Positions 8,300-36,729 of a DNA stretch of 64,000 bases are shown one piece after another. The translations under genes were made by a program, and so were the position numbers. The notes under the pieces were generated by a model. That model saw only the letters and a list, made by a program, of their open reading frames with translations, was not told the origin of the DNA and ran no database searches. How positions within the stretch are numbered: position 1 is the first letter of the stretch; each line of letters opens with the position of its first letter. Source of the stretch: Neoroseomonas oryzicola (GTDB lineage: Bacteria > Pseudomonadota > Alphaproteobacteria > Acetobacterales > Acetobacteraceae); the NCBI RefSeq assembly GCF_012163135.1, contig NZ_JAAVUP010000001.1, positions 1,116,001-1,180,000 on the forward strand, given 5' to 3'.

Positions 8300-9121
8300 A
8301 TGCCCCCCCTCACACGCCTCCTGCTCGCAGGTGTCGCGGCGTTGGCGCTCGTCGCCGGCGGCGGCGGCGCGTGGTGGTGGCTGTCGGGGCGCGGCCCGGC
8401 GGAAATGCTGCCCACCCCGCCCGAACCGCCGCGCCTGTCGGACGCGCCGGAATACGAACGCTGCCTCGACATGCTCGAAGACGATCCCGAAGGCGCGCGG
8501 CGCTTCGCCGATTCCTGGGGCATGGACGGCGGCGGCGAATCGGCGGCGCATTGCGCGGCGCTCGCGGCCCTGTCGCTGGGTGAGGCGGAACGCGCGGCCG
8601 AGGCGCTGGAACGCATCGCCGCGCGCAGCCAGGCCGGAATCGCCGCCCGTGCCGCCGTCTTCGGCCAGGCCGGCGAGGCCTGGACCGCCGCCGGCAAGCC
8701 GCAACGTGCCCATGCGGCGCTGACCCTCGCCCTCGCCCTGGTGCCGGCCGACGCCCAGTTGCTCACGGCGCGCGCGGTCGCCCTGCTGGCGCTCGATCGC
8801 CCGTCCGAGGCACTGGACGACCTCGACCACGCCGTCGCGGCCGATGGATCGAACGCCGAATCCTGGGTGCTGCGCGCCTCCGCCCTGCGGCGGCTGGACC
8901 GCGTGGGCCCGGCCGCGGAAAGCGTGGCGCAGGCCCTGCGGCTCGAGCCCGACAATGTCGAGGCGCTGCTGGAGCGCGGGGTCATCCGCCAGATCCAGGG
9001 CGATGCAAGCGGTGCGCGGTCGGATTGGGAACGGGTGATCGAACTCGCGCCCGACGGCCCGACGGCCGACCTCGCCGCGCAGAACATGGCGCTGATCGAG
9101 GCGGGCCCCGCCCAGCGCTGA
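8300..9121 (+). CDS. TPR-repeat protein with N-terminal membrane anchor
   Basis: A 273-residue protein with one N-terminal transmembrane segment (LLLAGVAALALVAGGGGAW), then an acidic linker with two cysteines, then about five tetratricopeptide repeats in residues 110-260 (for example AVALLALDRPSEALDDLDHA and ALRLEPDNVEALLERG). It is probably a periplasmic or inner-membrane scaffold. A CTAGAT -10-like element at 8287-8292 with CTGGCA 17 bases upstream lies so close to the ATG that the transcript may have almost no leader. A GTG at 8294 is an alternative start. Confidence 0.8.
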   Translation: MPPLTRLLLAGVAALALVAGGGGAWWWLSGRGPAEMLPTPPEPPRLSDAPEYERCLDMLEDDPEGARRFADSWGMDGGGESAAHCAALAALSLGEAERAAEALERIAARSQAGIAARAAVFGQAGEAWTAAGKPQRAHAALTLALALVPADAQLLTARAVALLALDRPSEALDDLDHAVAADGSNAESWVLRASALRRLDRVGPAAESVAQALRLEPDNVEALLERGVIRQIQGDASGARSDWERVIELAPDGPTADLAAQNMALIEAGPAQR

Positions 9122-9135
9122 TCCCCGCGGGGGGC

Positions 9136-9804
9136 TCAGAAATCGAGGTTGGCGTAGTGATCCGGCGGCTCGAGGCCGCTGACCCGGTCCGCCAGCAGCG
9201 GCCGGAAGGACGGGCGCGACTTCACCCTCGCATACCAGTCCTTCGCCCCCTCGCTCAGCGACCAGTCGATGTCGCCGATGTAGTCGAGGGCCGAGAGATG
9301 CGCCGCCGCCGCGAGGTCGGCAAGCGAGAGCATCGGCCCCGCCAGCCAGGGCCGCGTCTCGGCCAGCCAGCCGAGATAGGCGAGGTGCGGCTTGAGATTG
9401 GCGTAGCCCGCGCGGATCGAGGACGCATCCGGATTGCCGCGCCCCATGGCCCGCTTGAACTGCTTTTCGTAGAGCAGGTTCATGCCGACCTCGGCGTGGA
9501 ACTTGCCGTCGAACCAGGCGACCAGGCGCCGCACCTCGACGCGCTCGGCCAAGGTCCGGCCGAGCAGCGGCGTGTCCGGATAGGCCTCATCGAGGTATTC
9601 GCAGATCGCGTAGGAATCCGGGATGGTGAGGCCGTTGTCCTCCTGCAGCACGGGCACGGTGCAGGCGGGGTTCATGGCCAGGAAATCGTCGCGCCGTTCC
9701 CACACGCGCTCGATGCGCAGGTCGAAGGGAATGCGCTTCTCCGCCAGGGCGAGACGGACCTTGCGGGAGAAGGGCGAGAGGGGAAGGTGGAACAGCAGCC
9801 TCAC
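9136..9804 (-). CDS. Glutathione S-transferase family protein
   Basis: A 222-residue two-domain GST. The N-terminal thioredoxin-fold domain has LSPFSRKVRLALAEK with an SPFSRK active-site region, then cis-proline CTVPVLQ and DSYAICEYLDE, the glutathione gamma-glutamyl binding site. The C-terminal all-helical domain includes LSLADLAAAAHLSALDYIGD with the conserved N-capping Asp. It belongs to the bacterial group also found near formaldehyde genes, but no such genes are here. It converges with the TPR gene across a short CCCCGCGGGG palindrome at 9123-9132. Confidence 0.88.
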   Translation of the reverse strand: MRLLFHLPLSPFSRKVRLALAEKRIPFDLRIERVWERRDDFLAMNPACTVPVLQEDNGLTIPDSYAICEYLDEAYPDTPLLGRTLAERVEVRRLVAWFDGKFHAEVGMNLLYEKQFKRAMGRGNPDASSIRAGYANLKPHLAYLGWLAETRPWLAGPMLSLADLAAAAHLSALDYIGDIDWSLSEGAKDWYARVKSRPSFRPLLADRVSGLEPPDHYANLDF

Positions 9805-9852: not shown

Positions 9853-10359
9853 TCAGATTCGCCTGGCGCAGGCGAGGAAGGCCTCGGTCACCGCGCGCGT
9901 CCCGCGCAGGTCGGCCGACCAGGGCGTGACGTTCTCGCCGGGGAACAGCACCTGCATCCGCAACCCGAGGGCGAAGGCCTCGACGAAGTTCATGAAGTTC
10001 TGGAAGGCACCCTGGTAGGAGGCCTCGATCATGTCGGCGCGGCTGGTGCCGTGGTAGTTGAGCTCCGCGCGGCGGCTGTCGATCGCGATGACGATGCGCC
10101 CCGTCGCGGCCTGGCGAACGTTCCAGCTGCGGTCGCCCACCTGGACGAAGCCGTGCAGGTTGCCCTGCATCCGCTCCACCTTGATCCAGAAGAAGCGGCC
10201 GAGGCGGTTGGCATCCGTCCCCATGCCGCAGAGCGGCCCGTTCTCGGTCTGCGCGACATAGGCGCGCCAGCCATTGACCGCCGCGATGTCGCGGACCTGC
10301 GCCGAGGCCGGCGCCGAAAGGGCGAGGACGGCCGCAAGGGCCAGGGCCAGGAAACGCAT
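9853..10359 (-). CDS. Secreted hypothetical protein
   Basis: A 168-residue protein with a clear Sec signal peptide (MRFLALALAAVLALSAPASA, cleavage after ASA). The mature part (about 148 residues) is mixed alpha/beta with no family I recognise. The start at 10359 is supported by AAGGAG 7 bases upstream; an upstream in-frame ATG at 10422 would hide the signal peptide. It is probably monocistronic and lies just beyond the 3' end of gltB. Function unknown. Confidence 0.7.
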   Translation of the reverse strand: MRFLALALAAVLALSAPASAQVRDIAAVNGWRAYVAQTENGPLCGMGTDANRLGRFFWIKVERMQGNLHGFVQVGDRSWNVRQAATGRIVIAIDSRRAELNYHGTSRADMIEASYQGAFQNFMNFVEAFALGLRMQVLFPGENVTPWSADLRGTRAVTEAFLACARRI

Positions 10360-10442
10360 GCGCTGCTCCTTTCGTCCGTCCGGGAGGCCGGCGTCACGGA
10401 CGGAACATGACAGGCAGGACATGCGGACGGAAGGTGGGCGGC

Positions 10443-10474
10443 CGCCGCCCGGTGAAGCGATTCACCGGGCGGCG
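10443..10474 (-). terminator. Strong hairpin after gltB
   Basis: A 14-bp perfect stem (10443-10456 with 10461-10474) with a GCGA tetraloop begins 10 bases beyond the gltB stop. It has no T tract on the minus strand, so it is either a terminator of the U-poor type or an mRNA 3'-end protecting structure. Confidence 0.55.
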
Positions 10475-10483
10475 TGCGCAGGA

Positions 10484-13400
10484 TCACTCGGCGGCGACGG
10501 CGTCCGCATCGCGCATCGGCACCGGCAGGTACTTCACGTATTCCTTCGGCACGACATGCCAGAAGCGGCCACGCTCGGTCGCCCATTCGTTCAGCAGGCG
10601 GGCGGCGAAGCGGCTGCCGGTCTCCGCGACATGCCGGGCGATCAGGTCGCACAGCACACCTTCCCAATGCGGGTGGGAGACGCGGTTCCAGACCAACGTG
10701 TCCGGATTGACGCGCAGTTCGAAATTGTCGTCGGCGTCGTAGACGAAGGCGTGGCCGCCGGTGAAGCCGGCGCCGAAATTGTCGCCCACGGCGCCGAGGA
10801 TCACGACCGTGCCGCCGGTCATGTACTCGCAGCCATTGGCGCCGCAGCCCTCGACCACCGCGGTGGCGCCGGAATTGCGCACCGCGAAGCGCTCGCCCGC
10901 CTGGCCGGCGGCAAACAGCTCACCGGCCGTCGCGCCATAGAGGCAGGTGTTGCCGATGATCGTGTTCTCGTTCCACACCAGCGGCGAGGACGGCGCCGGG
11001 CGCACCACGATGGTCGCGCCAGACAGGCCCTTGCCGACATAGTCGTTGGCGTCGCCGAAGACTTCCAGCTTGAGGCCCCGCACGCCGAAGGCGCCGAGCG
11101 ACTGGCCGGCGGACCCGCGCAGCCGGACGCTGAGATGGCCGGGCTGCAGGCCGCTCATCCCGAACTGGCGCGTGATGCGGGACGACACCTTGGTGCCGAT
11201 CGCACGATGCGTGTTCCGGATGTTGTACTGCAGTTGCATCTTCTCGCCGTGGCGGAACAGAGCGTCGGCGTCGCGGATCATCTCCGCGTCCAGCGTCTCC
11301 GGCACCTCGTTGCGGCCTTCGAGGGTGCAATAGGCGGCATGCGGGCCGGCATCGGCCTGCACCAGCAGCGGGTTGAGGTCGAGGTCGTCGAGGTCCTCCG
11401 ACCCGCGGCTGACCTGCTGCAGCAGATCGGTCCGCCCGATGATGTCCGTGAGCTTCCGGAAGCCGAGCGAGGCGAGGATCTCGCGCACCTCCTCCGCCAC
11501 GAAGGAGAAGAGGTTGATCACCTTCTCCGGCGTGCCGGTGAACTTCTGGCGCAGGGCTTCGTCCTGCACGCAGACGCCGACGGGGCAGGTGTTGGAGTGG
11601 CACTGGCGGACCATGATGCAGCCCATGGCCACGAGCGAGGCGGTGCCGATGCCGAATTCCTCGGCCCCCAGCATCGCCGCGATCACCACGTCGCGCCCGG
11701 TCTTGATGCCGCCATCGGTGCGCAGCTTCACGCGGTGGCGCAGCCGGTTCAGCAGCAGCACCTGGTGGGTCTCGGAAAGGCCCATCTCCCACGGCAGCCC
11801 GGCATACTTGATGGAGGATTGCGGCGAGGCGCCGGTGCCGCCCGAATGGCCGGACACCAGGATCGCATCCGCCTTCGCCTTGGCGACGCCGGCGGCGATG
11901 GTGCCGATGCCCGAACGGCTCACGAGCTTCACGCAGACCGATGCATCCGGGTTGATCTGCTTGAGGTCGTAGATGAGCTGCGCCAGGTCCTCGATCGAGT
12001 AGATGTCGTGGTGCGGCGGGGGCGAGATCAGCGTCACGCCCGGCGTCGAATGCCGCAGCTTCGCGATCAGCCCGGTCACCTTGAAGCCGGGCAGCTGCCC
12101 GCCCTCGCCGGGCTTGGCACCCTGGGCGACCTTGATCTCGATCTCGCGGCAGTTGTTGAGGTATTCCGCGGTCACGCCGAAGCGACCCGACGCGATCTGC
12201 TTGATGGCGGAATTGGCGTTGTCGCCGTTCGACCGCGGCTTGGCGCGCGACGGATCCTCGCCGCCCTCGCCGCTGTCCGACTTCGCGCCGATGCGGTTCA
12301 TCGCGATCGACAGCGTCTCATGCGCTTCCGGGCTCAGCGCGCCGAGCGAGATGCCGGGCGCGACGAGGCGCTTGCGGATCTCGGTGATGCTCTCGACTTC
12401 CTCGAGCGTGACCGGCGTGCGGCCTTCCATCCGGAAGTCGAGCAGGTCGCGCAGCGCGACGGGCGGCAGCTTCCGCACCGCGTCGGAATAACGCTTGAAG
12501 GTCTGGTAGCTGTCGGTCTCGACCGCCTTCTGCAGCGTGTGGATCAGGCTGCCGTCGAAGGCGTGCACCTCGCCGCGCCGGCGCAGCTTGTACAGGCCGC
12601 CGACCGGCAGGGTGATCGCACCTTCCTGCCAGGCCTTCTCGTGCAGCGCGAGGAGGCGCCGCGCGATGCCCGACAGGCCGATGCCGGAGATGCGCGACGG
12701 CGTGCCGGGGAAGAATTCCGCCACCAGCGCGCGCGACAGGCCGATCGCCTCGAAGTTCATGCCGCCGCGGTAGGAGGACAGCACGCCGATGCCCATCTTG
12801 GACATCACCTTCAGCAGGCCCTTGTCCACCGCCTTCTTGTACTTCGCGACGGCGTCCCCCAGGCCGACATTGCCGAACAGGCCGCGGCGGTGGCGGTCGG
12901 CGATGCTCTCCTGCGCGAGATAGGCGTTGACCGTCGTCGCCCCCGCGCCGATCAGCACGGCGAAGTAGTGCACGTCCATGCACTCGGCGGCGCGCACATT
13001 GAGCGAGGTGAAGGTGCGCAGCCCGTGCTTGACCAGGTGCGTCTGGACCGCGCCGACCGCGAGGATCATCGGGATGGCGGCGCGCTCCTGGCCCTGCGCC
13101 TCATCGGTCAGGATCACGTGGGCGCAGCCCGAGCGCACGCCCTCCTCCGCCTCGCGGCGGATGCGCTCGATGGCGCGGCGCAGGCCGGTCTCATCCTCCT
13201 CGACCGGCCAGGTGCAGTCCACCGTGCAGACGGTCGCACCCATATAGGCGCGCATCGCCTCGAACTGCGCGTTGGACAGGACCGGGCTGTCCAGCATCAG
13301 CATGTCGCACTGGGTTGGGTCCTCGTCGAGGATGTTCCCGAGATTCCCGAGGCGCGTCTTCAGCGTCATCACCCGCGTCTCGCGCAGCGAGTCGATGGGC

Positions 13401-26714: not shown

Positions 26715-28127
26715 CTACCGGAAGACCGGCACCTCGTTCTCCTCGCTCGTATCCGGCATCGGCACCTCGATCCGCACGGTCGAGGGATCGACGCCGGTGC
26801 CCTTGTCGATCCAGTAGGTCACGCTCTCGGGCCAGAGGATCACGATCGCGACCAGCAGCAGCTGCAGCCCCACCCAGGGGATCGCACCCCAGTAGATGTC
26901 CCGCGACAGCACTTCCTTGGGCGCGATGCCGCGCAGGTAGAACAGCGCGAAGCCGAAGGGCGGGTGCATGAAGGACGTCTGCATGTTGATGCAGAGCAGC
27001 ACGCCGAACCACACCAGGTCGATGTCGAGCTTCGCCGCCACCGGCGCCAGCAGCGGGATGATGATGAAGGCGATCTCGAAGAAGTCGAGGAAGAAGGCCA
27101 GGAAGAAGACGAAGATGTTGACGAAGACCAGGAAGCCCGTCTGACCGCCCGGCAGGTGCGACAGCAGGTGCTCGATCCAGTGGCTGCCGTCCACGCCCTG
27201 GAACACCAGGCTGAACACGGTCGCGCCGATCAGGATGAAGATCACCATGGAGGTGATCCGCATCGTGTTCGCCATCGCCTCGCGCATCAGCGTCCAGGTG
27301 AAGCGGCCGTTGATCATCGCCAGCACGACGGCGCCGACCGCGCCCATCGCACCCGCTTCCGTCGGCGTCGCGAGGCCCATGAAGATGGTCCCGAGCACCA
27401 GGAAGATCAGCACGACCGAGGGCACCATGCCCTTGAGCACGCGCCACCACAGCGCCCAGCCGCGCGGGCCCAGCGCCTCGTCCGGCAGGGGCGGCACCTT
27501 GTGGGGGGCGAAGATCGATACGCCCGCGATGAAGAGGATGAAGAGGAAGACCTGCAGGAAGGACGGCCCGATCGCGCCGGCATACATGTCGCCGACCGAC
27601 TTGCCGAGCTGGTCGCCCAGCACGATCAGCACGAGCGAGGGCGGGATGACCTGCGTGATGGTACCGGATGCCGCGATCACGCCCGTCGCGATGCGCATGT
27701 CGTAGCCGTAGCGCATCATGATCGGCAGCGAGATCATGCCCATCGCGATCACGCTCGCCGCCACCGTGCCGGTGATGGCACCCAGCACCGCGCCCACCAG
27801 GATGACGGCATAGGCGAGCCCGCCCGGGATCTTGCCGAACAACTGCCCGGTGCCCTCGAGCAGGTCCTCCGCCAGGCCGCATCGCTCGAGGATCGCGCCC
27901 ATCAGCGTGAAGAACGGGATCGACAGCAGCAGGTCGTTGGACAGGATGCCGAAGACGCGCAGCGGCAGGTTGCCGAGATAGGCGGTGGTGAAGAAGCCCA
28001 TCTCGATCGACAGGAAGCCGAAGAACAGCCCGACCGCGGACAGCGAGAACGCCACCGGGAAGCCCATCAGCAGGAAGACCACCAGGCCGCCGAACATCAG
28101 CGGCGGCATGATTTCCAGGCTCAGCAC
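26715..28127 (-). CDS. dctM: TRAP transporter large permease, DctM family
   Basis: A 470-residue integral membrane protein with about 12-13 transmembrane segments, the ion-coupled transport subunit of a TRAP importer. It has the DctM landmarks GFPVAFSLSAVGLFFG, LLLSIPFFTLMGAILERCG, IAASGTITQVIPPSLVLIVLG and MQTSFMHPPFGFALFYLRG. A GTG start at 28127 lies 4 bases after the dctQ stop; ATG at 28109 is an alternative. The cognate binding protein DctP is not in the window. Confidence 0.9.
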   Translation of the reverse strand: MLSLEIMPPLMFGGLVVFLLMGFPVAFSLSAVGLFFGFLSIEMGFFTTAYLGNLPLRVFGILSNDLLLSIPFFTLMGAILERCGLAEDLLEGTGQLFGKIPGGLAYAVILVGAVLGAITGTVAASVIAMGMISLPIMMRYGYDMRIATGVIAASGTITQVIPPSLVLIVLGDQLGKSVGDMYAGAIGPSFLQVFLFILFIAGVSIFAPHKVPPLPDEALGPRGWALWWRVLKGMVPSVVLIFLVLGTIFMGLATPTEAGAMGAVGAVVLAMINGRFTWTLMREAMANTMRITSMVIFILIGATVFSLVFQGVDGSHWIEHLLSHLPGGQTGFLVFVNIFVFFLAFFLDFFEIAFIIIPLLAPVAAKLDIDLVWFGVLLCINMQTSFMHPPFGFALFYLRGIAPKEVLSRDIYWGAIPWVGLQLLLVAIVILWPESVTYWIDKGTGVDPSTVRIEVPMPDTSEENEVPVFR

Positions 28128-28131
28128 GGTC

Positions 28132-28680
28132 CTACTGCTCCGGTCGGTGGTATTCGGCGAGGTGCGCCGCATCGGGCGCGATGCCCATCAGCGCGGCGAC
28201 ACGCTTCACCAGTTCGGACAGCCCCTGCAGCGTCACCAGCAGGAAGCCCAGCGGCAGTACCAGCTTGACGGGCCAGCGGATGAGACCGCCCGCGTTGGGC
28301 GACCCCTCCCCCCGCACCCAGGCGTCCCAGAAGAAGGGCCAGGTCATCCAGGCGAGCAGCGCCATGGCCGGCAGCAGGAAGAAGATGATGCCGAAGACGT
28401 CGATCCACAGTCGCGCCCGCGCGCTGACGCTGCCGTAGACGAGGTCGACGCGCACATGCTCGTTGCGTTCCAGCGTGTAGGACGCGCCGAGCATGACCAC
28501 GCCGGCGAAGAGGTACCACTGCACCTCGAGCCAGGCGTTGGAGGACATCGAGAAGCCGTACCGGATCACCGCATTGCCCGCGCTGACCACGCAGGCCGCG
28601 AGCACCATCCAGTCCGCGATGCGTCCGAAGGCGGCGCTGACCGCATCCATCCCCCGGCTGAAGGCGAGCAGCGGCCTCAT
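28132..28680 (-). CDS. dctQ: TRAP transporter small permease, DctQ family
   Basis: A 182-residue protein with four transmembrane helices and the family pattern YGFSMSSNAWLEVQWYLF followed by LGASYTLERNEHVRVDLVY. It forms the small membrane subunit that pairs with DctM. It overlaps nothing and is followed almost directly by dctM. The absence of a dctP gene next to the pair means the substrate is unknown; the family imports acidic metabolites such as keto acids or sulfonates. Confidence 0.9.
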   Translation of the reverse strand: MRPLLAFSRGMDAVSAAFGRIADWMVLAACVVSAGNAVIRYGFSMSSNAWLEVQWYLFAGVVMLGASYTLERNEHVRVDLVYGSVSARARLWIDVFGIIFFLLPAMALLAWMTWPFFWDAWVRGEGSPNAGGLIRWPVKLVLPLGFLLVTLQGLSELVKRVAALMGIAPDAAHLAEYHRPEQ

Positions 28681-28853: not shown

Positions 28854-28928
28854 CATTTCACAAAATGAGGGTTTCTCCACCCGCATGCCGAAGAAGCATG
28901 CGCTTCCCTGAATGGCTCCGGGGGGTAT
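28854..28928 (+). promoter_or_regulatory. Structured region around the hyfB start
   Basis: CATTT-CACA-AAATG (28854-28867) is a perfect dyad. CGCATGC-CGAAGAA-GCATGCG (28882-28902) is a 7-bp hairpin that encloses the ATG at 28898. GGGGGGTAT (28920-28928) resembles one half of CsoR/RcnR-type metal operators, but no matching half is present. Together they suggest control of the hydrogenase-like operon, though the true promoter is not identified. Confidence 0.3.
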
Positions 28929-30979
28929 CCTCCCTACGTGACCCGCGACTCCGCCACGCCGTGCTGACCCTGCTGCTCCTCGCCACCGGGGGCCTGCTGG
29001 TCCTTGCCGCGGCGGCGCCGGCGCTGGCGCGCCACGCGAAGGGTGCGCCCGTCGTGCTGGGCGGTTGCGCCGCCGCATCGGTGCTGATCGCGGCGGGGGC
29101 CGTGGGCGGGCTGCTCGGCGGGCCCGACGCGCTGGACCTGCCCTTCGGCCCGCCCTGGGGTCCGGCGCGGGTCGCGATCGATGCGCTGTCGGCCTGGTTC
29201 CTGCTGATCCTGGGGCTGGCGGGGACCGCCGCCTCGATCTTCGCCCTGGGCAGCCTGCATGGGCCGGAGGCGCCGCGCCGCCTCCTCCCCTACCCGCTCT
29301 TTCTCGCGGGCATGGCTGTCACGCTGCTCGCCGCTGACGGCTTCACCCTGCTGCTCGGCTTCGAGGCGATGTCCCTCGCCTCCTGGGTGCTCGTCGCGCA
29401 TGAGCACGAGGAGGAGGAGGCGAACCGTCGCGCCGCGCGGATCTACCTCGGCTTCGCGGGCTTCGGCGGGCTGTCGCTGATGCTCGCCTTCGGCGTGCTC
29501 GCCGGCGGCGCGGGGGACGTCGCCTTCGCCGCCCTGCGGGAGGCCCCGCCCGACGGCTGGCGCGCGGCGCTGGTGCTGGCGTTGGTACTCGCCGGGGCGG
29601 GATCCAAGGCCGGGCTCGCGCCGTTGCATGTCTGGCTGCCCCTCGCCCACCCCGCGGCGCCGAGCCATGTCTCGGCGCTGATGTCGGGCGCGATGACCAA
29701 GGTCGCGATCTACGTCCTCGCCCGTTTCGCCTTCGACCTGATGGGATCGGCGCAGCCGCTCTGGCTCGGCGCGCCGCTGGTGGCACTCGGCGCGGCCTCG
29801 GCGGTGATCGGCGCGCTGCGCGCGAATCTCGAGGAGGACATCAAGACGCTCCTCGCCTGCTCGACCATCGAGAATGTCGGGCTGATCTCGATCGGCCTCG
29901 GGCTTGCGCTGGCCTTCCGCGGCGCGGACCTGCCGGCGCTCGCCGCACTCGCGGCAGGGGCGGCGCTGCTGCACGCGCTGAACCATGCGGTGTTCAAGAC
30001 GCTGCTGTTCCTGGCCGCCGGGGAAGTGCTGCACGGCGCGCTGTCGCGGCGGATCGACCGGCTGGGCGGGCTGATCCATCGCATGCCGGTCACCGCCTGG
30101 GCGGCGCTGGCGGGCGTGGCGGCGGCCGCATCGCTGCCGCCGCTGTCGGGCTTCGCGTCCGAATGGCTGCTGCTGCAGGCGCTGCTGGCGTCCTGGCGGG
30201 TGGGCGACCTCGCCTTCCAGATGGGTGCCGCGGCAGCGACGGCGCTGGCCGCGCTGGCCGCGGCCCTCGCAGCAGCGGCCATGGTCCGCTTCTGGGGCTT
30301 GGTCTTCCTCGGCCGGCCGCGCACGCCGCGCGCCGCGGGCGCGGAGGAAGGCGGACGGCTGGTCCAGGCCGCGCTGATCCTGCCGGCGGCACTTACCGTC
30401 CTGTTCGGGCTGCTGCCCGGGGTGATGCTCGACCTCGCGGAGCCGGCGCTGCGGCTGATGACGCGCGCCGCGGCGCCGCGGGCGGGCTTCGTCGCCATCG
30501 GCGCGGCGGAAGGCGGGGCGCGCTACTGGCCGCTGCTGGTCGCGCTGCTGCTCGCGGCGGCGGTCGGCGCCGTGGTCTGGGCGGTGCGCCGGCGCGCGCC
30601 GGCGGGCGTGGCGCGCGGCCCGATCTGGGATTGCGGCTTCATCGCCGCCCCGCACCACCTGCCCTTCGGCGACCCCTCGTCGCAGCCCACCGCCTCGGGC
30701 TTCGGCCAGCCGCTGCGCCGGATGCTCGGCACCAGCCTGCTCGCGGCGCGGGAGGGAGTGACCATGCCGCCGCCCGGCGCCACCGCCCCCGCCGTGCTCC
30801 AATCCGGCTTCCACGACCCTGCCCTCGTTGCGCTGGAAGGGCCGGTGCCGCGCTGGCGGGACGCGGCCGCGGCGCAGGCGGAACGGCTGCGCGACCTGTC
30901 GATCCGGCAATGCCTCGGCCTCACCTTCGGCGCGGTGGTTCTGATGCTCGCCCTGCTCGCCTGGCTGGAGGCGCGCTGA
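28898..30979 (+). CDS. hyfB: Hydrogenase-4 component B-like, antiporter-type proton-translocating subunit
   Basis: A 693-residue polytopic membrane protein of the NuoL/M/N and Mrp antiporter family. It has GFEAMSLASWVLVAHE (conserved Glu), GSKAGLAPLHVWLPLAHPAAPSH (conserved Lys and broken helix) and HALNHAVFKTLLFLAAGEV, as in HyfB/HycC. It is the first gene of a six-gene overlapping operon for a complex I/hydrogenase-related assembly. The start is uncertain: ATG 28898 lies inside a hairpin, and an in-frame GTG at 28961 begins right at the first membrane helix. The stop overlaps the next ATG by one base. Confidence 0.9.
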   Translation: MRFPEWLRGVSSLRDPRLRHAVLTLLLLATGGLLVLAAAAPALARHAKGAPVVLGGCAAASVLIAAGAVGGLLGGPDALDLPFGPPWGPARVAIDALSAWFLLILGLAGTAASIFALGSLHGPEAPRRLLPYPLFLAGMAVTLLAADGFTLLLGFEAMSLASWVLVAHEHEEEEANRRAARIYLGFAGFGGLSLMLAFGVLAGGAGDVAFAALREAPPDGWRAALVLALVLAGAGSKAGLAPLHVWLPLAHPAAPSHVSALMSGAMTKVAIYVLARFAFDLMGSAQPLWLGAPLVALGAASAVIGALRANLEEDIKTLLACSTIENVGLISIGLGLALAFRGADLPALAALAAGAALLHALNHAVFKTLLFLAAGEVLHGALSRRIDRLGGLIHRMPVTAWAALAGVAAAASLPPLSGFASEWLLLQALLASWRVGDLAFQMGAAAATALAALAAALAAAAMVRFWGLVFLGRPRTPRAAGAEEGGRLVQAALILPAALTVLFGLLPGVMLDLAEPALRLMTRAAAPRAGFVAIGAAEGGARYWPLLVALLLAAAVGAVVWAVRRRAPAGVARGPIWDCGFIAAPHHLPFGDPSSQPTASGFGQPLRRMLGTSLLAAREGVTMPPPGATAPAVLQSGFHDPALVALEGPVPRWRDAAAAQAERLRDLSIRQCLGLTFGAVVLMLALLAWLEAR

Positions 30980-31938
30980 TGGCGGTCGTGTGGTCGATCC
31001 TCTCCCAGGCGCTGCACATCGCGCTGATCGTCGCGGCGGCGCCGGTGCTGACCGGCGTGCTGCGCTGGCTCAAGGCACGGATGATGGGCCGGCGCGGCGC
31101 GCATCCGCTGCAGCCGGTGTGGGACCTGCTGAAGCTGCTGCGCAAGACGCCGGTGCTGGCGGAGAACGCCTCGGTCGTCTCGCGCGCCGCGCCCTACCTC
31201 ACGGCCGGCGCTGCGGTCGCGGCGGCGGCGCTGGTGCCCTCCTTCGCGCGCGGCATGGCCCTGGCACCGCTGTCGGACCTCATCGTCGTCGCGGGGCTGC
31301 TGGCGCTCGGTCGCGTCGCGATGGCGCTGGCGGGGATGGATGTGGGAACGCCCTTCGGCGGCCTCGGCGCGGCCCGCGAGATGTCCTTTGCCGCGCTCGC
31401 GGAACCGGCCCTCGTCGTCGCTGCGCTGTCGCTCGCGATCCTCGCGGGCACCACGAACCTGGACGCCATCGCCGGTGCCTTCCGCGAAGGCGGGCTCGGC
31501 CTTCGCGTCTCGCTCGGCCTCGCCCTCGTCGCGATGCTGGCCGTCGCGGTGGCGGAGAATGCCCGCATCCCCGTCGACAATCCCGCGACGCATCTCGAAC
31601 TGACCATGGTGCATGAGGCGATGATCCTCGAGGCCTCGGGCCGGCACCTCGCGCTGTGGGATTTCGCGGCGATGCTGCGGCTGACGCTGTGGCTCGCGCT
31701 CCTCTCGGCGGTGTTCCTGCCGCTGGGCCAGGCGCCGGCCGGCGCGGGGCCGCATCTGTGGATCGTCGGTCTCGCGGCTTGGCTCGCGAAGATGGGCGCG
31801 CTGGCGCTGGCGCTGGCCGCCTTCGAAAGCGCGATCGCCAAGATGCGTGTCTTCCGCGTGCCGGAATTCCTTGGCGCGGCACTGCTGCTCGGCCTGCTGG
31901 GCGCGGTGCTGCTCTTCGTCTCGACGGGGCTGACATGA
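30979..31938 (+). CDS. hyfC: Hydrogenase-4 component C-like (NuoH-type) membrane subunit
   Basis: A 319-residue protein with about eight membrane helices, homologous to HyfC/HycD and to complex I NuoH. Loop motifs are HPLQPVWDLLKLLRKTPV, the NPATHLELTMVHEAMILEASG segment with the conserved acidic residues facing the catalytic module, and FESAIAKMRVFRVPEFLGAA near the C-terminus. It links the membrane arm to the electron-transfer subunits. It overlaps hyfB by 1 base and hyfE by 4. Confidence 0.92.
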   Translation: MAVVWSILSQALHIALIVAAAPVLTGVLRWLKARMMGRRGAHPLQPVWDLLKLLRKTPVLAENASVVSRAAPYLTAGAAVAAAALVPSFARGMALAPLSDLIVVAGLLALGRVAMALAGMDVGTPFGGLGAAREMSFAALAEPALVVAALSLAILAGTTNLDAIAGAFREGGLGLRVSLGLALVAMLAVAVAENARIPVDNPATHLELTMVHEAMILEASGRHLALWDFAAMLRLTLWLALLSAVFLPLGQAPAGAGPHLWIVGLAAWLAKMGALALALAAFESAIAKMRVFRVPEFLGAALLLGLLGAVLLFVSTGLT

Positions 31939-32603
31939 GCTTCGGTCAGCTCGGCTACGACGTCGCGCATCTGCTCGGGGGCGGGGTGCTGCTGCTGTCC
32001 TTCGTGCTGCTGTACCAGCGGCGCATCGGGGCGGTGATCAACGCCTTCGCGACGCAGGGGACGCTGCTCGCGCTGGCCGCCGCCTGGCAGGCCCATGCGC
32101 AGGGGGCGCCGGGGCTCTACCTCACGGCGGTGCTCGCCTTCGCCGCCAAGGGTGTGCTGATCCCCCTCGCGCTACACGCCATCGTGCGGCGGCTCAACCT
32201 GCATCGCAGCGTGGAAACGGCGCTCGGCGTCGGCCTGTCGATGACCGCCGGCGTCGCGCTGGTCGGCCTGTCCATCCTGGTGGTGCTGCCGGCGACCGAG
32301 GGCGCGCGCGCCCTGGCGCGGGAGGATGTGGCCCTCGCGCTGTCCGTCGTGCTGCTCGGCATGCTGATGATGATCACGCGGCGCAACGCGATCAGCCAGG
32401 TGATCGGGCTGCTGTCGCTCGAGAACGGTCTGATCCTCGCCGCCATCGGCGTCGCCGGCATGCCGCTGGTGGTCGAACTTTCCACCGCCGCGCTGGTGCT
32501 GATGGTCGCCGTCGTCGCCGGTGTCTTCGCCTTCCAGATCCGCGAGCGCTTCGACACGCTCGACACCGGCAGCCTCGAGGAACATCGCGGGGAGGGTCGG
32601 TGA
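31935..32603 (+). CDS. hyfE: Hydrogenase-4 component E-like membrane subunit
   Basis: A 222-residue protein with about six to seven membrane helices, in the HyfE family. It includes the NuoK-like RRNAISQVIGLLSLENG segment with a conserved acidic residue within a membrane helix, used in proton transfer in complex I. Start ATG 31935 overlaps the hyfC stop (ATGA). The stop shares one base with the hyfF start, and the GGAGGG ribosome site for hyfF lies within the last codons. Confidence 0.9.
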   Translation: MSFGQLGYDVAHLLGGGVLLLSFVLLYQRRIGAVINAFATQGTLLALAAAWQAHAQGAPGLYLTAVLAFAAKGVLIPLALHAIVRRLNLHRSVETALGVGLSMTAGVALVGLSILVVLPATEGARALAREDVALALSVVLLGMLMMITRRNAISQVIGLLSLENGLILAAIGVAGMPLVVELSTAALVLMVAVVAGVFAFQIRERFDTLDTGSLEEHRGEGR

Positions 32604-34039
32604 TGCCCCTGCAATGGGCCATCGTCTTCTTCGCCTGGGGCGGCGCCGTCGCGCTGGCCGCGGTGCCGCGGCTGCGCACCGCGACGCTGGTCAATGTCGG
32701 CGTCAGCGCCGTCTCCTTCCTGCTCGCCGTCGCCCTCGCCCTGCAGCCCTTCGCGCAGCATGGCTGGACCCGCACGGATGCGCTGAACACGCCCTTCATC
32801 CTGGTCTCGGCCTTCGTCGGGCTCACCACCTCGGTCTTCTCGGCCGCGACGCTGGACCAGGAAGGCTTCGACCATTGGCGCATCCGCGCCTACCACGCCG
32901 CCTACCAGGTCTTCATGGGGGCGCAGACGCTCGCCCTGCTCGCCGACAACCTCGGCGTGATGTGGGTGGCGATCGAGATCGCGACGCTGGCGACCGTCTC
33001 GATGGTCGCGGTCCACCGCACGCCGGCGGCCTTCGAGGCAGCCTGGAAGTTCTTCATCCTCTGCGGCGTCGGCATCGCGCTGGCGCTGTTCGGCACCATC
33101 GTCCTCTACCTCGCGGCCCAGCCCCTGCTGCATGAGGAAACCGGCCTGTCCTGGGCCGCGCTGATGGGTGTCGCGGCGCGGTGCGACCCGAACACGCTCA
33201 ACCTCGCCTTCGCCTTCCTGCTGCTCGGCTACGGCACCAAGGCGGGGCTCGTGCCGCTGCATTCCTGGCTGCCGGATGCCCATGCCGAAGGGCCGGTGCC
33301 GATCTCGGCCGTGCTGTCGGGACTGCTGCTGAATGCGGCGATGCTCGCGGTGCTGCGGGCGAAGTCGATCGTCGGCGCCAATCCGGACGCCATCGCGCCG
33401 GGGCCGTTCCTGATCGCGCTCGGCCTCGCCTCGGTGCTGCTCGCCTCGGTCTCGCTGTGGCGGCGGCGGGATGCGCGGCGCTTCTTCGGCTGGTCCTCCA
33501 TCGAGCACATGGGCATCGTCGCCTTCGCCTTCGGGCTTGGCGGGGCGGCGGCGAACCTCGCGGGGCTGCTGCACCTGGTCGGCCATTCCGTCATCAAGAG
33601 CGCGGTGTTCTTCGGCGTCGGTCGCGCCGCCCAGGCCAAGGGCAGCCAGAAGATCGCCGACATCTCGGGCCTGGTCGCGACGCATCCGGCGCTGGGCTGG
33701 GGCCTCGCCTTCGCCATCGCGGGCATCGCGGGGATGCCGCCCTTCCTGCTGTTTGCCTCGGAATTCCGCCTGCTCACCGCCGCGGCGGCCGAGGCGCCCT
33801 GGCTGGCGCTGGCGCTCGTCGCCGGCATGGTGATGGCGCTGGCCGCGCTCATCACCGTCCTGCAGGCGCTCTGCTTCGGCCCGCCGACGTCCGACGCCGC
33901 CGGTGCGCTGGATGGCTGGCGGGAGGCCGCAGCGGCGGCACCGCTCTGGCTGCATCTCGCTGTCGCCACCCTGCTCGGCCTCGCCATGCCCGGCGCGCTG
34001 GCTGCCATGCTGGCCGAGGCCGCGAGGATCATCGGATGA
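32603..34039 (+). CDS. hyfF: Hydrogenase-4 component F-like, second antiporter-type subunit
   Basis: A 478-residue NuoM/N-like membrane protein with DNLGVMWVAIEIATLATVSMV (conserved Glu), GYGTKAGLVPLHSWLPDAHAE (conserved Lys) and HLVGHSVIKSAVFFGVGRA. With HyfB it gives the complex two antiporter-like modules. The ATG at 32603 is preferred over the GTG at 32600 because of spacing from GGAGGG. It overlaps the next gene by 4 bases. Confidence 0.92.
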   Translation: MPLQWAIVFFAWGGAVALAAVPRLRTATLVNVGVSAVSFLLAVALALQPFAQHGWTRTDALNTPFILVSAFVGLTTSVFSAATLDQEGFDHWRIRAYHAAYQVFMGAQTLALLADNLGVMWVAIEIATLATVSMVAVHRTPAAFEAAWKFFILCGVGIALALFGTIVLYLAAQPLLHEETGLSWAALMGVAARCDPNTLNLAFAFLLLGYGTKAGLVPLHSWLPDAHAEGPVPISAVLSGLLLNAAMLAVLRAKSIVGANPDAIAPGPFLIALGLASVLLASVSLWRRRDARRFFGWSSIEHMGIVAFAFGLGGAAANLAGLLHLVGHSVIKSAVFFGVGRAAQAKGSQKIADISGLVATHPALGWGLAFAIAGIAGMPPFLLFASEFRLLTAAAAEAPWLALALVAGMVMALAALITVLQALCFGPPTSDAAGALDGWREAAAAAPLWLHLAVATLLGLAMPGALAAMLAEAARIIG

Positions 34040-35547
34040 GCGCTACCGCCCTGATCCGCGCCGGTGCGCCGCAGGGGGCGCGGCCCTTCGAGCGATTCCT
34101 GCTGTCCCCCGACGCCTGGGCCCGCCTGCCCGCCGCGCTGCGGGCGGAACCCTCGCTTGCGCTGCTCGCCCTCTGGGCCGAACCGGGCCTGGTCCACGCC
34201 GCCTTCCTCGACGAAGCCGCGGGCGGCGTACTTCTGGCTTCCGCCCCGGCCGAGGGCGGCCGCTACGCCGCCCTCTCGCCCGCCCGCCCGGGTGCGATCC
34301 GCTTCGAGCGCATGATCCGCGACCTCTGGGGCCTCACGGCCGAGGGCGCCGTCGACCTCCGCCCTTGGCTCGACCATGGACGCTGGCCAGTGGCTGGGCC
34401 GCTGTCGGGCCAGCCGGCGCAACTTACGGGCGCCGAGCCCCCCCAGCCCGAATTCCTCCCGGTCGAGGGCGAGGGCGTCCACCAGATCCCGGTCGGTCCG
34501 ATCCATGCCGGCGTCATCGAGCCCGGCCATTTCCGCTTCCACATCCAGGGCGAGATCGTCGTCCGGCTCGAGGAACGGCTCGGCTACAAGCACAAGGGCA
34601 CGCTGTCGCTCATGCTCGGCAAGTCGCCGCGCGCCGCGGCGGTCTTCCCCGCCCGGCTGTCGGGCGATTCCACCGTGGCCCATGCCTGGGCCTTCGCCGC
34701 CGCGGCCGAGGCCGCGCTGGGCGTCGCCGTGCCGGAACGTGCCACCGCGCTGCGCGCCGTGATGGGCGAGCTCGAGCGCATCCACAACCACCTCAATGAC
34801 TGGGGCTTCGTCTGCAACGACGCGGCCTTCGCCTTCCCGCACGCCCGCTGCGGCTTCCTGCGCGAACAGGTGCTGCGCGCCTGCGCCGCGGCCTTCGGCC
34901 ACCGGCTGATGATGGATTGCGTCCTGCCCGGCGGCGTCGCGCCGGACATCGCCGATGGCGGGGCGGCGGCGATCCTCGCCGCGCTCGCGGCCGTCGAGGC
35001 CGAGATCCCGGCACTCGTGAAGATCTACGAGAGCCACGCCAGCCTGCAGGACCGCGTGGTCGGCACCGGCTTCCTGAACCCGGACTTCGCCCGGGCCTAT
35101 GCGGCAGGCGGCTTCGTCGGCCGCGGGTCCGGCCGGCGCTTCGACGCCCGCATGGCGCCGGGCTACGCGCCCTACGACCTGCTCGCCCCGCCCGTGGTGG
35201 TCGAGGCCGGCGGCGACGTCGATGCCCGTGTGCGCGTGCGCATCGCCGAACTCCGAGCGTCGATCGCCATGGTCCGCCGCCTGCTCGGCGCCCTGCCCGG
35301 CGGCGAGACGCTGGTCGCCCTGCCCGCCCATGGCGGCGAGGGCAGCGCCCTCGTCGAAGGCTTCCGCGGCGAATGCCTGGCCTGGCTGCGCCTGGACGAT
35401 GGCGGGCTGATCCGCGGCGTCTTCCTGCGCGACCCGTCCTGGCTGCAATGGCCGCTGCTGGAGGCCGCGATCGAGGGGAACATCGTCGCCGACTTCCCCC
35501 TGTGCAACAAATCCTTCAACTGCTCCTACAGTGGGGTCGACCTGTGA
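34036..35547 (+). CDS. hyfG: Hydrogenase large-subunit-like protein lacking Ni ligands (HyfG/NuoCD-like)
   Basis: A 503-residue fusion of an N-terminal NuoC-like part (about 1-130) and a C-terminal NuoD / [NiFe] large-subunit-like part. In HycE/HyfG the active site uses RxCGxC and DPCxxC. Here the first motif reads RLSGDSTVAHA (Ser209, Ser212) and the second reads NCSYS (Cys496, Ser499), so three of four nickel-binding cysteines are serine. The surrounding residues (ERIHNHL, QDRVVGTGFL, GNIVADFPL) are preserved. The protein should not form a NiFe centre and, like NuoD or Ehr complexes, may handle a quinone or another substrate. It overlaps hyfF by 4 bases. Confidence 0.88.
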   Translation: MSATALIRAGAPQGARPFERFLLSPDAWARLPAALRAEPSLALLALWAEPGLVHAAFLDEAAGGVLLASAPAEGGRYAALSPARPGAIRFERMIRDLWGLTAEGAVDLRPWLDHGRWPVAGPLSGQPAQLTGAEPPQPEFLPVEGEGVHQIPVGPIHAGVIEPGHFRFHIQGEIVVRLEERLGYKHKGTLSLMLGKSPRAAAVFPARLSGDSTVAHAWAFAAAAEAALGVAVPERATALRAVMGELERIHNHLNDWGFVCNDAAFAFPHARCGFLREQVLRACAAAFGHRLMMDCVLPGGVAPDIADGGAAAILAALAAVEAEIPALVKIYESHASLQDRVVGTGFLNPDFARAYAAGGFVGRGSGRRFDARMAPGYAPYDLLAPPVVVEAGGDVDARVRVRIAELRASIAMVRRLLGALPGGETLVALPAHGGEGSALVEGFRGECLAWLRLDDGGLIRGVFLRDPSWLQWPLLEAAIEGNIVADFPLCNKSFNCSYSGVDL

Positions 35548-35602
35548 GCGGACGACGCACAGGCGCGGCGCCCGGGAGCACAACCCCCCCAGGCGAATCG
35601 AC

Positions 35603-36172
35603 ATGCTCTGGCCACGCCTCGCCCGCGCGCTGATCGGCAAGCCGCTGACCGACCCGGCGCCGCCGGTGCCGCAGGACACGGTCCACGCGCTGGCCGAACG
35701 CCTCGCCGCCACGGCCCGCACCCGGCTGGGCCGCAGCCTCGCGATCCGGGAGGTCGACAGCGGATCCTGCAACGGCTGCGAGCTCGAGGTGAACGCGCTG
35801 CAGAACGTCGCCTACGACCTCGAGCGATTCGGCCTGCGCTTCGTCGCCTCCCCCAAGCATGCCGACGTGCTGCTCGTCACCGGCCCCGCCTGCCGCAACA
35901 TGGCCGAGGCGATGGAGCGCGCGCTCGCCTGCACGCCCGAACCGCGCTGGGTCGTTGCCGCGGGGGATTGCGCGGTGGATGGCGGGGTCTTCAAGGGGTC
36001 CTACGCCGTGCATGGCGGCGTCGGCGCGGTGCTGCCGGTCGATCTGCTGATCCCGGGCTGCCCGCCCTCCCCCACCCAGTTGCTGGAAGGGCTGCTGGCG
36101 CTGCTGGAGGCCGAGGCCCGGCCCCCCCGCAAAGAAAATAGGGCCGGCTGGATTGCTCCAGCCGGCCCGTAA
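35603..36172 (+). CDS. hyfI: Hydrogenase small-subunit-like / NuoB-like iron-sulfur protein
   Basis: A 189-residue protein homologous to HyfI/HycG and NuoB. It retains the ligands for one [4Fe-4S] cluster equivalent to N2: GSCNGCE (Cys56, Cys59), GDCA (Cys123) and PGCPPSP (Cys153). Electrons can thus reach the altered large subunit. An N-terminal stretch rich in basic residues precedes the domain. ATG 35603 lies 55 bases after hyfG. The last 15 codons overlap a minus-strand terminator, giving an unusual tail (KENRAGWIAPAGP). No NuoI/HyfH-type ferredoxin subunit is encoded in the operon. Confidence 0.88.
   Translation: MLWPRLARALIGKPLTDPAPPVPQDTVHALAERLAATARTRLGRSLAIREVDSGSCNGCELEVNALQNVAYDLERFGLRFVASPKHADVLLVTGPACRNMAEAMERALACTPEPRWVVAAGDCAVDGGVFKGSYAVHGGVGAVLPVDLLIPGCPPSPTQLLEGLLALLEAEARPPRKENRAGWIAPAGP
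36129..36168 (-). terminator. Intrinsic terminator on the minus strand, inside the hyfI 3' end
   Basis: A perfect 12-bp stem, GGGCCGGCTGGA (36141-36152) with TCCAGCCGGCCC (36157-36168), is followed on the minus strand by the T-rich stretch TATTTTCTTT (complement of 36131-36140). It would end transcripts coming from the DUF1489 gene and the structured region next to it. The stem lies within hyfI coding sequence. Confidence 0.75.
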
Positions 36173-36303: not shown

Positions 36304-36729
36304 TCAGATAAGGCAGAGCTCGGCCAGATCCTTGCGCAGCCGCGGCGGCAGGCGGTCCAGCCCGATCGCCGGCGGGCGGTCGGCGGCGACATCCGGGGGC
36401 GCTTCCTCGGGCTTGAGGTAGCGCCAGCCCTGGAAGGCCTTGGTCGGGCGGGCTTCGACGGGGACCAGGGTGGGATCCAGCACAAGGGCGGCGCATTGGG
36501 TGGTGTCGTCCCAGGCTTCCTCGCGGATCTCGAGGATGCGCTGGCGCACGCGCACGAAGCCGCCGATCACCCAGTAGATCGACCCGCCATCGGTGACCTC
36601 GGCGATCCGCTTGGGAAACATGCGGGTCCAGGCGCGCAGCGGCGGTTCGGTGCGCAGCCGTTCCTTCTGCAGCGCCGCGAGCGCGGCGACGTCCTTGGGC
36701 CCGACCGAGAGCTTGATGAGGTGCAGCAC
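36304..36729 (-). CDS. DUF1489 family protein
   Basis: A 141-residue soluble protein of the alphaproteobacterial DUF1489 family. It begins MLHLIKLSVGPKDVAALAALQ and contains IYWVIGGFVRVRQRILEI, AFQGWRYLKPEEAPPD and a C-terminal LPPRLRKDLAELCLI, all typical. No catalytic residues are known for the family. It is probably monocistronic, with transcription continuing through the structured region to the terminator inside hyfI. Confidence 0.88.
   Translation of the reverse strand: MLHLIKLSVGPKDVAALAALQKERLRTEPPLRAWTRMFPKRIAEVTDGGSIYWVIGGFVRVRQRILEIREEAWDDTTQCAALVLDPTLVPVEARPTKAFQGWRYLKPEEAPPDVAADRPPAIGLDRLPPRLRKDLAELCLI

Follow-up and report, generated by a model that had tools for sequence, protein, structure and literature searches.

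A 64,000-nucleotide stretch of the Neoroseomonas oryzicola genome (contig NZ_JAAVUP010000001.1, positions 1,116,001 to 1,180,000; hereafter the window) contains a six-gene operon, hyfBCEFGI, on the forward strand at positions 28898-36172, and the sequence supports its assignment to the energy-converting hydrogenase-related (Ehr) complexes and not to the hydrogenases. This assignment is made because the operon is of group 4 hydrogenase ancestry, its large subunit, HyfG, has lost the nickel ligands, HypD is absent from the genome and the charges of the membrane arm are intact; a preliminary description of the same DNA had already invoked the Ehr concept. That description counted three of the four nickel-binding cysteines as lost, but according to the alignments below all four are gone, exchanged for a fixed new set of residues. 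The proposal developed here, in which moderate confidence is placed, is that the six gene products form a working Ehr complex that moves ions coupled to electron transfer through the iron-sulfur cluster of HyfI. Close HyfG homologues of this complex I relative are common in the sampled Acetobacteraceae genomes and occur in other sampled genomes of the class; fluoride riboswitches precede the operons of a sister lineage, and two cousins are devoid of the proximal cluster. The question of Ehr function thereby becomes concretely testable.

Each gene was assigned with Pfam and NCBIfam models, and all six are full length and closely packed, in a genome of 5.3 Mb that is 99.6% complete. The first gene, hyfB (28898..30979), encodes a NuoL/MrpA-type antiporter-like subunit of 693 residues that matches NF005086, hydrogenase 4 subunit B (E = 1.3e-179; 598.8 bits, cut-off 667), and MbhH (PDB 6cfw_H; E = 8.7e-47); hyfC (30979..31938) encodes a NuoH/HycD-like subunit of 319 residues (E = 2.7e-33 to PF00146 and 1.3e-29 to HycD, PDB 7z0s_D). 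The HyfE/NuoK-like product of hyfE (31935..32603; 222 residues) scores below the cut-offs of NF008556, hydrogenase 4 membrane subunit (E = 1.4e-19; 70.8 bits, cut-off 136), and PF00420 (E = 7e-5; 22.9 bits, cut-off 26.1). The second antiporter-like subunit, of NuoM/N type, is encoded by hyfF (32600..34039; GTG start; 479 residues) and exceeds the cut-off of NF005043, hydrogenase 4 subunit F (548.3 bits; cut-off 533). The two remaining genes are hyfG (34036..35547), for a NuoCD/HycE-like large subunit of 503 residues, and hyfI (35603..36172), for a NuoB/HycG-like small subunit of 189 residues with one [4Fe-4S] site and no ferredoxin domain, PF01058 being its sole Pfam match. These models bear out the subunit identities proposed in the preliminary description, HyfE at sub-threshold scores; its picture of six overlapping genes holds for the first five, which overlap their neighbours by 1-4 nucleotides, but not for hyfI, which starts after a 55-nucleotide gap. 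The ATG at 35603 is favoured as the start of hyfI, and an in-frame GTG further upstream, at 35531, is less likely because the copy in a congener (L172) also encodes 189 residues.

By sequence and by fold, the best PDB match of HyfG is HycE (PDB 7z0s_E) of formate hydrogenlyase (FHL); the alignment spans 431 residues, with E = 1e-50 for the HyfG sequence alone and 3e-80 for a 22-sequence profile, and the TM-score is 0.81. Opposite the RVCGIC of HycE, in place of the RxCGxC motif, HyfG has RLSGDS (residues 207-212; 34654..34671), with S209 and S212 at the ligand positions. The C-terminal DPCxxC region is replaced by NKSFNCSYSGVDL (residues 491-503; 35506..35544): ...SLDPCYSCTD of HycE stands opposite ...SFNCSYSGVD of HyfG, and DPCYSC corresponds to NCSYSG (N495-G500). 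The cysteine C496 is thereby placed opposite the proline, while the ligand positions are taken by S497 and G500, and the same register is obtained from a cousin with intact cysteines (L135, NKSFELCYSCTDR). Because C496 sits on the proline and the four ligand positions hold S209, S212, S497 and G500, no nickel ligand is left in HyfG, and a hydrogenase with one remaining nickel ligand is ruled out by this register. Position 496 is itself variable, being C in 73 of 80 aligned rows (the window and 79 of 80 named loci, those loci being the best 80 of 572) and otherwise G or A; it is L in the three betaproteobacterial plasmid copies that were read (L124, Cupriavidus metallidurans CH34; L129, Variovorax; L130, Paraburkholderia). 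No intact CxxC pair, which the preliminary description had named as contrary evidence, occurs elsewhere in HyfG. The protein ends at the motif (...SYSGVDL), whereas E. coli HyfG has an extra C-terminal tail.

HyfG resembles FHL/hydrogenase 4 (E. coli Hyf, L113; HycE; A. argentinense, L128) in sequence and fold, and HyfI, HyfB, HyfC, HyfE and HyfF do so in sequence. Family names and the resemblance of the operon to E. coli hyf could therefore suggest a residual or unusual hydrogenase of the FHL type, a reading that the sequence contradicts and that can practically be dismissed. FHL/hydrogenase 4 has RxCGxC, DPCxxC, the C-terminal protease tail, HyfA, HyfD, the ferredoxin subunit HyfH and HyfJ, none of which is found in the window, and A. 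argentinense additionally has HycI and nearby hypA and hypC, also missing from the window. In 81 sources (the window and the 80 named loci), queries with HyfA, HyfH and HyfJ from E. coli and with HycI and HypA from A. argentinense found no homologue; a HypC homologue is present in two of these sources (L087 and L098), and E. coli HyfD as query matched only the two core antiporter-like subunits. The earlier claim that hydrogenase maturation genes are lacking stands for HypD, absent from the whole genome, and for HypA, without a homologue in the window, the genome-wide search having covered HypD and not HypA, HypB, HypC, HypE or HypF. The absence of a ferredoxin-like HyfH gene was also described correctly, since a genome-wide search for a dedicated HyfH returned NuoI, encoded next to the nuo operon, and a single weak match, but nothing else. 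Formate dehydrogenase is missing from the neighbourhood as had been stated, but one alpha subunit above the cut-off is encoded elsewhere in the genome; the enzyme is probably NAD-linked and is unlikely to be an FHL partner because a NuoE/NuoF-type protein adjoins it. A separate NuoD is likewise encoded elsewhere in the genome. In the relevant part of a published HydDB-based analysis, the Acidithiobacillus homologue is classed as a non-hydrogenase; public records label homologues as hydrogenase or NADH-quinone oxidoreductase subunits.

The HyfG site is a conserved replacement and not a product of decay, because the replacement residues are themselves conserved. R207, G210 and D211 are found in 80 of 80 rows, as are N491, K492, S493, N495, Y498, G500 and D502, while S209 is found in 79 (L067 alone has Cys there), S497 in 78 and S212 in 70, where the alternatives are A or T. 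The loci were retrieved with patterns covering approximately residues 151-168, and conservation across those residues is therefore not independent; gene orders other than BCEFGI among the rows reflect partly contig ends and partly artefacts of open reading frame starts. Eighteen of 20 more loci from the phylum (three in the class of the window, 15 in other classes) carry the replacement signature with some variation: one of them has A at 209, residue 212 may be A, C or M, and residue 497 may be A or N. The other two are true FHL. The signature recurs in betaproteobacterial L124, L129 and L130, the last of which departs from it with A at 209 and N at 497, and in gammaproteobacterial L112 (Thiorhodococcus).

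Strong purifying selection is evident in all six genes, with ratios of nonsynonymous to synonymous substitution rates relative to a congener of 0.122, 0.087, 0.019, 0.062, 0.096 and 0.064; comparisons with L033 and L037 were discarded as too divergent, the HyfB pair of L033 (30.7% over 453 residues) being evidently mismatched. The earlier impression of a compact operon, intact apart from its nickel site, is thus sustained, and a decaying relic is highly improbable, since ratios of 0.02-0.12, full-length, closely packed genes and conserved site residues and charges contradict it. Decay of this kind does occur in a long-branched, fast-evolving Acetobacteraceae set nested inside the group of the window (L145, L147, L152, L156-L171, L114 and L115): most of the site signature is lost there, the HyfI cluster cysteines are mostly kept, and the antiporter charges are lost in the three members that were checked (L145, L157 and L161), with three of the four HyfI cluster cysteines also gone in L161.

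HyfI of the window keeps all four [4Fe-4S] cysteines, as the preliminary description had stated (codons at 35768, 35777, 35969 and 36059), and these are conserved in 76 of 76, 76 of 76, 76 of 76 and 75 of 75 rows. In the membrane arm, HyfB E156, K237, K268, K316, H363, K367 and E422 are each at least 95% conserved (62 rows), and the key charges of HyfF are conserved. Among 28 compared, mostly charged positions in HyfB, HyfF and HyfC, 27 are identical to E. coli hydrogenase 4, the sole mismatch being HyfF 303, which is His in the window and Asn in E. coli.

Ion movement looks like the retained function. For the proposed working complex we infer assembly, ion pumping and its direction, a ferredoxin partner and the nature of the substrate. 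The membrane arm would consist of the antiporter-like HyfB and HyfF, the NuoH-like coupling subunit HyfC, and HyfE, with HyfG and HyfI as a minimal cytoplasmic stub. The complex would neither make nor use H2; it would move H+ (or Na+), coupled to electrons passing the single [4Fe-4S] cluster of HyfI, and the invariance of that cluster suggests that electrons still pass in complexes of this type. A soluble low-potential carrier, probably ferredoxin, would dock at the vacant place of HyfH and give or take electrons: the donor is expected to be diffusible because there is no HyfH and no fixed partner gene, and the entry point is suggested by analogy with the sister lineage, where HyfI itself carries the ferredoxin part as a fused domain. 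The metal-free pocket of HyfG, with an expected lining of S209-G210-D211-S212, N491-K492-S493, N495, S497 and Y498, would bind the other substrate, either some small polar molecule or the head group of a quinone; protons are not the expected substrate because the pocket has been exchanged.

Several points weigh against a complex that couples ion movement to electron transfer in this way. Neither an electron donor nor an acceptor has been identified. The AlphaFold model of HyfG is poor (predicted local distance difference test score below 50) at residues 129-187 and 480-503, so that the pocket geometry is a prediction only and was not taken from the model. The ligands of the quinone head group in complex I (His38 and Tyr87 of Thermus Nqo4) are missing, with G210 at the Tyr position and E162 near the place of His38 by sequence placement only. 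Finally, the wider family may be able to do without redox coupling, because none of the four HyfI cluster cysteines remains in two cousins that retain most of the antiporter-like charges: L126 of Allomeiothermus silvanus (hyfI at 10257-11138) and L215 of Mycobacterium branderi (8848-9642) both retain 10 of 10 compared positions in HyfF, and they retain 8 of 9 and 6 of 9, respectively, in HyfB and 8 of 9 and 4 of 9 in HyfC.

The missing quinone ligands bear equally on a serious but doubtful rival, a minimal complex I-like (NDH-1-like) ferredoxin:quinone oxidoreductase feeding the quinone pool. Complex I ancestry speaks for such an enzyme, the core subunits being homologous (NuoCD, NuoB, NuoH, NuoL/M) and HyfC NuoH-like, and the conserved Y498 could stand in for the missing quinone Tyr; however, the complex I ligands are not conserved, the replacement residues are polar, and Y498 is not diagnostic, since the hydrogenase motif DPCYSC has the same Tyr. 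Unlike complex I, moreover, the operon lacks the NADH module, NuoI and NuoG.

The other serious rival is suggested by the sister clade of the operon type represented in the window (96% support), here called type II, the window belonging to type I. Type II Ehr operons (L127, L141, L150, L151, L153, L154, L215, L235 and L236) encode the same subunits and lack the nickel ligands where these were read (e.g. RVSGVDT / EASFGLTISG; L150 stops before the second motif), but they have the gene order CEFGIB, a ferredoxin domain or half domain fused to HyfI, other site motifs and a fluoride riboswitch, none of which is found in the window. The fluoride riboswitch (RF01734) lies upstream of all nine type II operons found: L127:5182-5252, L141:8413-8475, L150:4475-4536, L151:4908-4969, L153:12820-12880, L154:4552-4626, L215:3600-3673, L235:2050-2120 and L236:1857-1927. 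An Rfam scan detected it in the eight loci scanned (L153 with a score of 36 for a cut-off of 34), and the L150 copy was detected by a model built from those eight. This model, trained on eight of the nine positives and with a reach toward distant riboswitches that is shown by L150 alone, found nothing at E 0.1 in 157 sources, made up of the window with the 80 named type I loci and 76 others (type I, degenerate and FHL loci with a few of no assigned type); Rfam scans of the window and of seven others were likewise negative. A NUDIX gene separates riboswitch and operon in L215, and genes of the DUF190, pyrophosphatase, crcB or enolase type are found nearby in L235, L236 and L215. One carrier of a type II operon is the soil bacterium Caballeronia sp. 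SBC1.

In the part of a 2024 review that concerns these riboswitches, formate hydrogen lyase is listed among the commonest associated enzymes (PMC11139923; also PMC8004769), and Na+/H+ antiporters are placed second to exporters among the associated classes, the reason given being that HF lowers cytoplasmic pH and the proton-motive force. The nine riboswitch-linked type II complexes are, on their predicted proteins, not FHL and cannot hold a NiFe site, because their large subunits lack nickel ligands where read. A non-redox antiporter of protons or cations that maintains pH or energy homeostasis, and in which HyfG and HyfI form a ligand-sensing or structural plug and the cluster is vestigial or structural, is accordingly a rival to be taken seriously, though an unlikely one. 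It accommodates the cousins without cluster cysteines, the riboswitches of type II together with the reviewed link between such riboswitches and Na+/H+ antiporters, and the lack of a conserved redox partner gene; it does not readily accommodate four cluster cysteines that are invariant over 76 rows in the lineage of the window, which are hard to explain without electron transfer, nor the absence of fluoride riboswitches from the window and the 80 other named type I loci.

A wider and frankly speculative view is that Ehr complexes are ion pumps that have outlived their redox chemistry, having lost the [NiFe] site and sometimes the HyfI cluster (L126 and L215) while keeping the antiporter machine. 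The 'formate hydrogen lyase' of fluoride riboswitches would then be the type II complex, serving proton and energy homeostasis under HF stress, and the type I complex of the window would be a cousin without the switch, its polar pocket with D211 and K492 gating ion flux through ligand binding or a one-cluster reaction and not through H2. Specialists are most likely to take an interest in the link of the sister type to fluoride, in the ferredoxin fusion and in the cousins without a cluster.

Fusion of a ferredoxin domain, or half of one, to HyfI was found in eight of the nine type II members, which are all those where HyfI is covered, as L150 ends before hyfI. The N-terminal domain in L127, L141, L151, L154, L235 and L236 is HyfH-like, of the 2[4Fe-4S] type with eight cysteines, whereas HyfI of L153, L215 and the related L126 has the cysteine set of one cluster of two (CP plus CxxCxxC). 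Of the four type II proteins submitted to Pfam, those of L127, L141 and L215 have Fer4 above the cut-off and that of L153 has none; two type I HyfI proteins tested in the same way contain no ferredoxin domain.

In a maximum-likelihood tree of 90 large subunits and a smaller tree with added members, the six-gene complexes form one clade (100%) that is sister to FHL (97% and 96% in the two trees). Its first branch is the cysteine-bearing L135 (95% in the 90-sequence tree, 73% in the smaller one), followed by type II, then Allomeiothermus (with Rhodococcus L216 nearby), then type I including the window. The window groups with C. metallidurans CH34, apart from FHL, with 100% support; the Geobacter, Nitrospira, Acidithiobacillus and Sulfobacillus members are outside the tree. 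The six-gene operon of L135 (7381-14896) encodes a HyfG with all four nickel cysteines, and no hyfH was found; the source genome, 88% complete and in 480 contigs, yielded no HypD, hyfF is split, and the sequence ahead of hyfI contains an ambiguous base. L135 was used for the register check only.

The six-gene type without nickel motifs is already in print with no function assigned, and the operon of the window adds one member to it. According to the published passages, clusters under hyfBCEFGI or Ehr names are known from four genera: hyfBCEFGI, as in the window, from Cupriavidus (C. necator H16), Acidithiobacillus ferrooxidans and Nitrospira, and six syntenic genes near a large subunit without the motifs from Sulfobacillus. 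The window has the features that define Ehr complexes, a large subunit related to group 4 hydrogenases but free of the CxxC motifs together with co-encoded antiporter-like and NuoH-like subunits, and it shares its clade with CH34. The CH34 operon (L124), which was read directly, has the same six-gene content, but its large subunit is 46.8% identical over the match and reads NKSFNLSYAGHDL, and a spermidine-synthase-like gene lies downstream. The Geobacter Ehr cluster GSU0739-45 is reported in the relevant passage to be closest in composition to Ech operons, and Geobacter Ehr proteins, of a composition other than that of the window, are reported to increase on formate. The passages concerned contain no expression or fitness data for this operon type, and a term search of the main text of a C. 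necator fitness paper returned no mention of Hyf.

Close HyfG relatives (at least 350 bits) were found in 24 of 289 sampled genomes of the class of the window. A close homologue is present in 87 of 150 sampled Acetobacteraceae genomes, a count made largely without a check of the motifs and including at least one degenerate form (G386). A six-gene operon is also present in a Rhodopseudomonas. Four Acetobacteraceae genomes (G399, G428, G352 and G380; loci L133-L141 and L148-L150) each carry three different superfamily members at separate loci, the co-occurring forms being type I, type II, true FHL, and cysteine-bearing or divergent. HypD is mildly enriched in the class genomes with the complex (5 of 24 versus 14 of 265 others; P = 0.014), and 19 of the 24 are without it. 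A link with CO dehydrogenase, suggested for Nitrospira in a published passage, was rejected: of the 11 genomes among the 289 that have form I CoxL above the cut-off, one belongs to the 24 that carry the complex (Fisher P = 1). A nitrogenase link was also rejected, as NifH occurs in 8 of the 289 genomes and 3 of the 24 (Fisher P = 0.02, uncorrected for genome size or kinship), leaving 21 of the 24 without NifH.

No electron-donor gene is a conserved neighbour across the 80 named loci. The operon of the window is flanked by divergently oriented TRAP transporter genes (26715-28680, reverse strand), of which dctM is above its cut-off and the small gene before it has no NCBIfam match, and downstream of hyfI by a DUF1489 gene (36304-36729, reverse strand) that is common to the close relatives L033, L034 and L110. 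Universal stress protein neighbours were dropped as candidates, since their occurrence in seven sources over approximately 2.5 Mb is close to a roughly guessed usual density. The sole widely shared neighbour found is a small helix-turn-helix (XRE) regulator directly 5' of hyfB in at least 32 of the 80 loci by position, which is not present in the window. Spermidine-synthase-like neighbours gave 10 matches in 8 sources and are not general; such genes, or methyltransferase-like ones, lie near hyf in L040, L045, L056, L068, L069, L124, L129 and L131, in Mesorhizobium, Bradyrhizobium, Cupriavidus and Variovorax hosts, and at several of these loci their immediate neighbour is a further copy of the XRE regulator.

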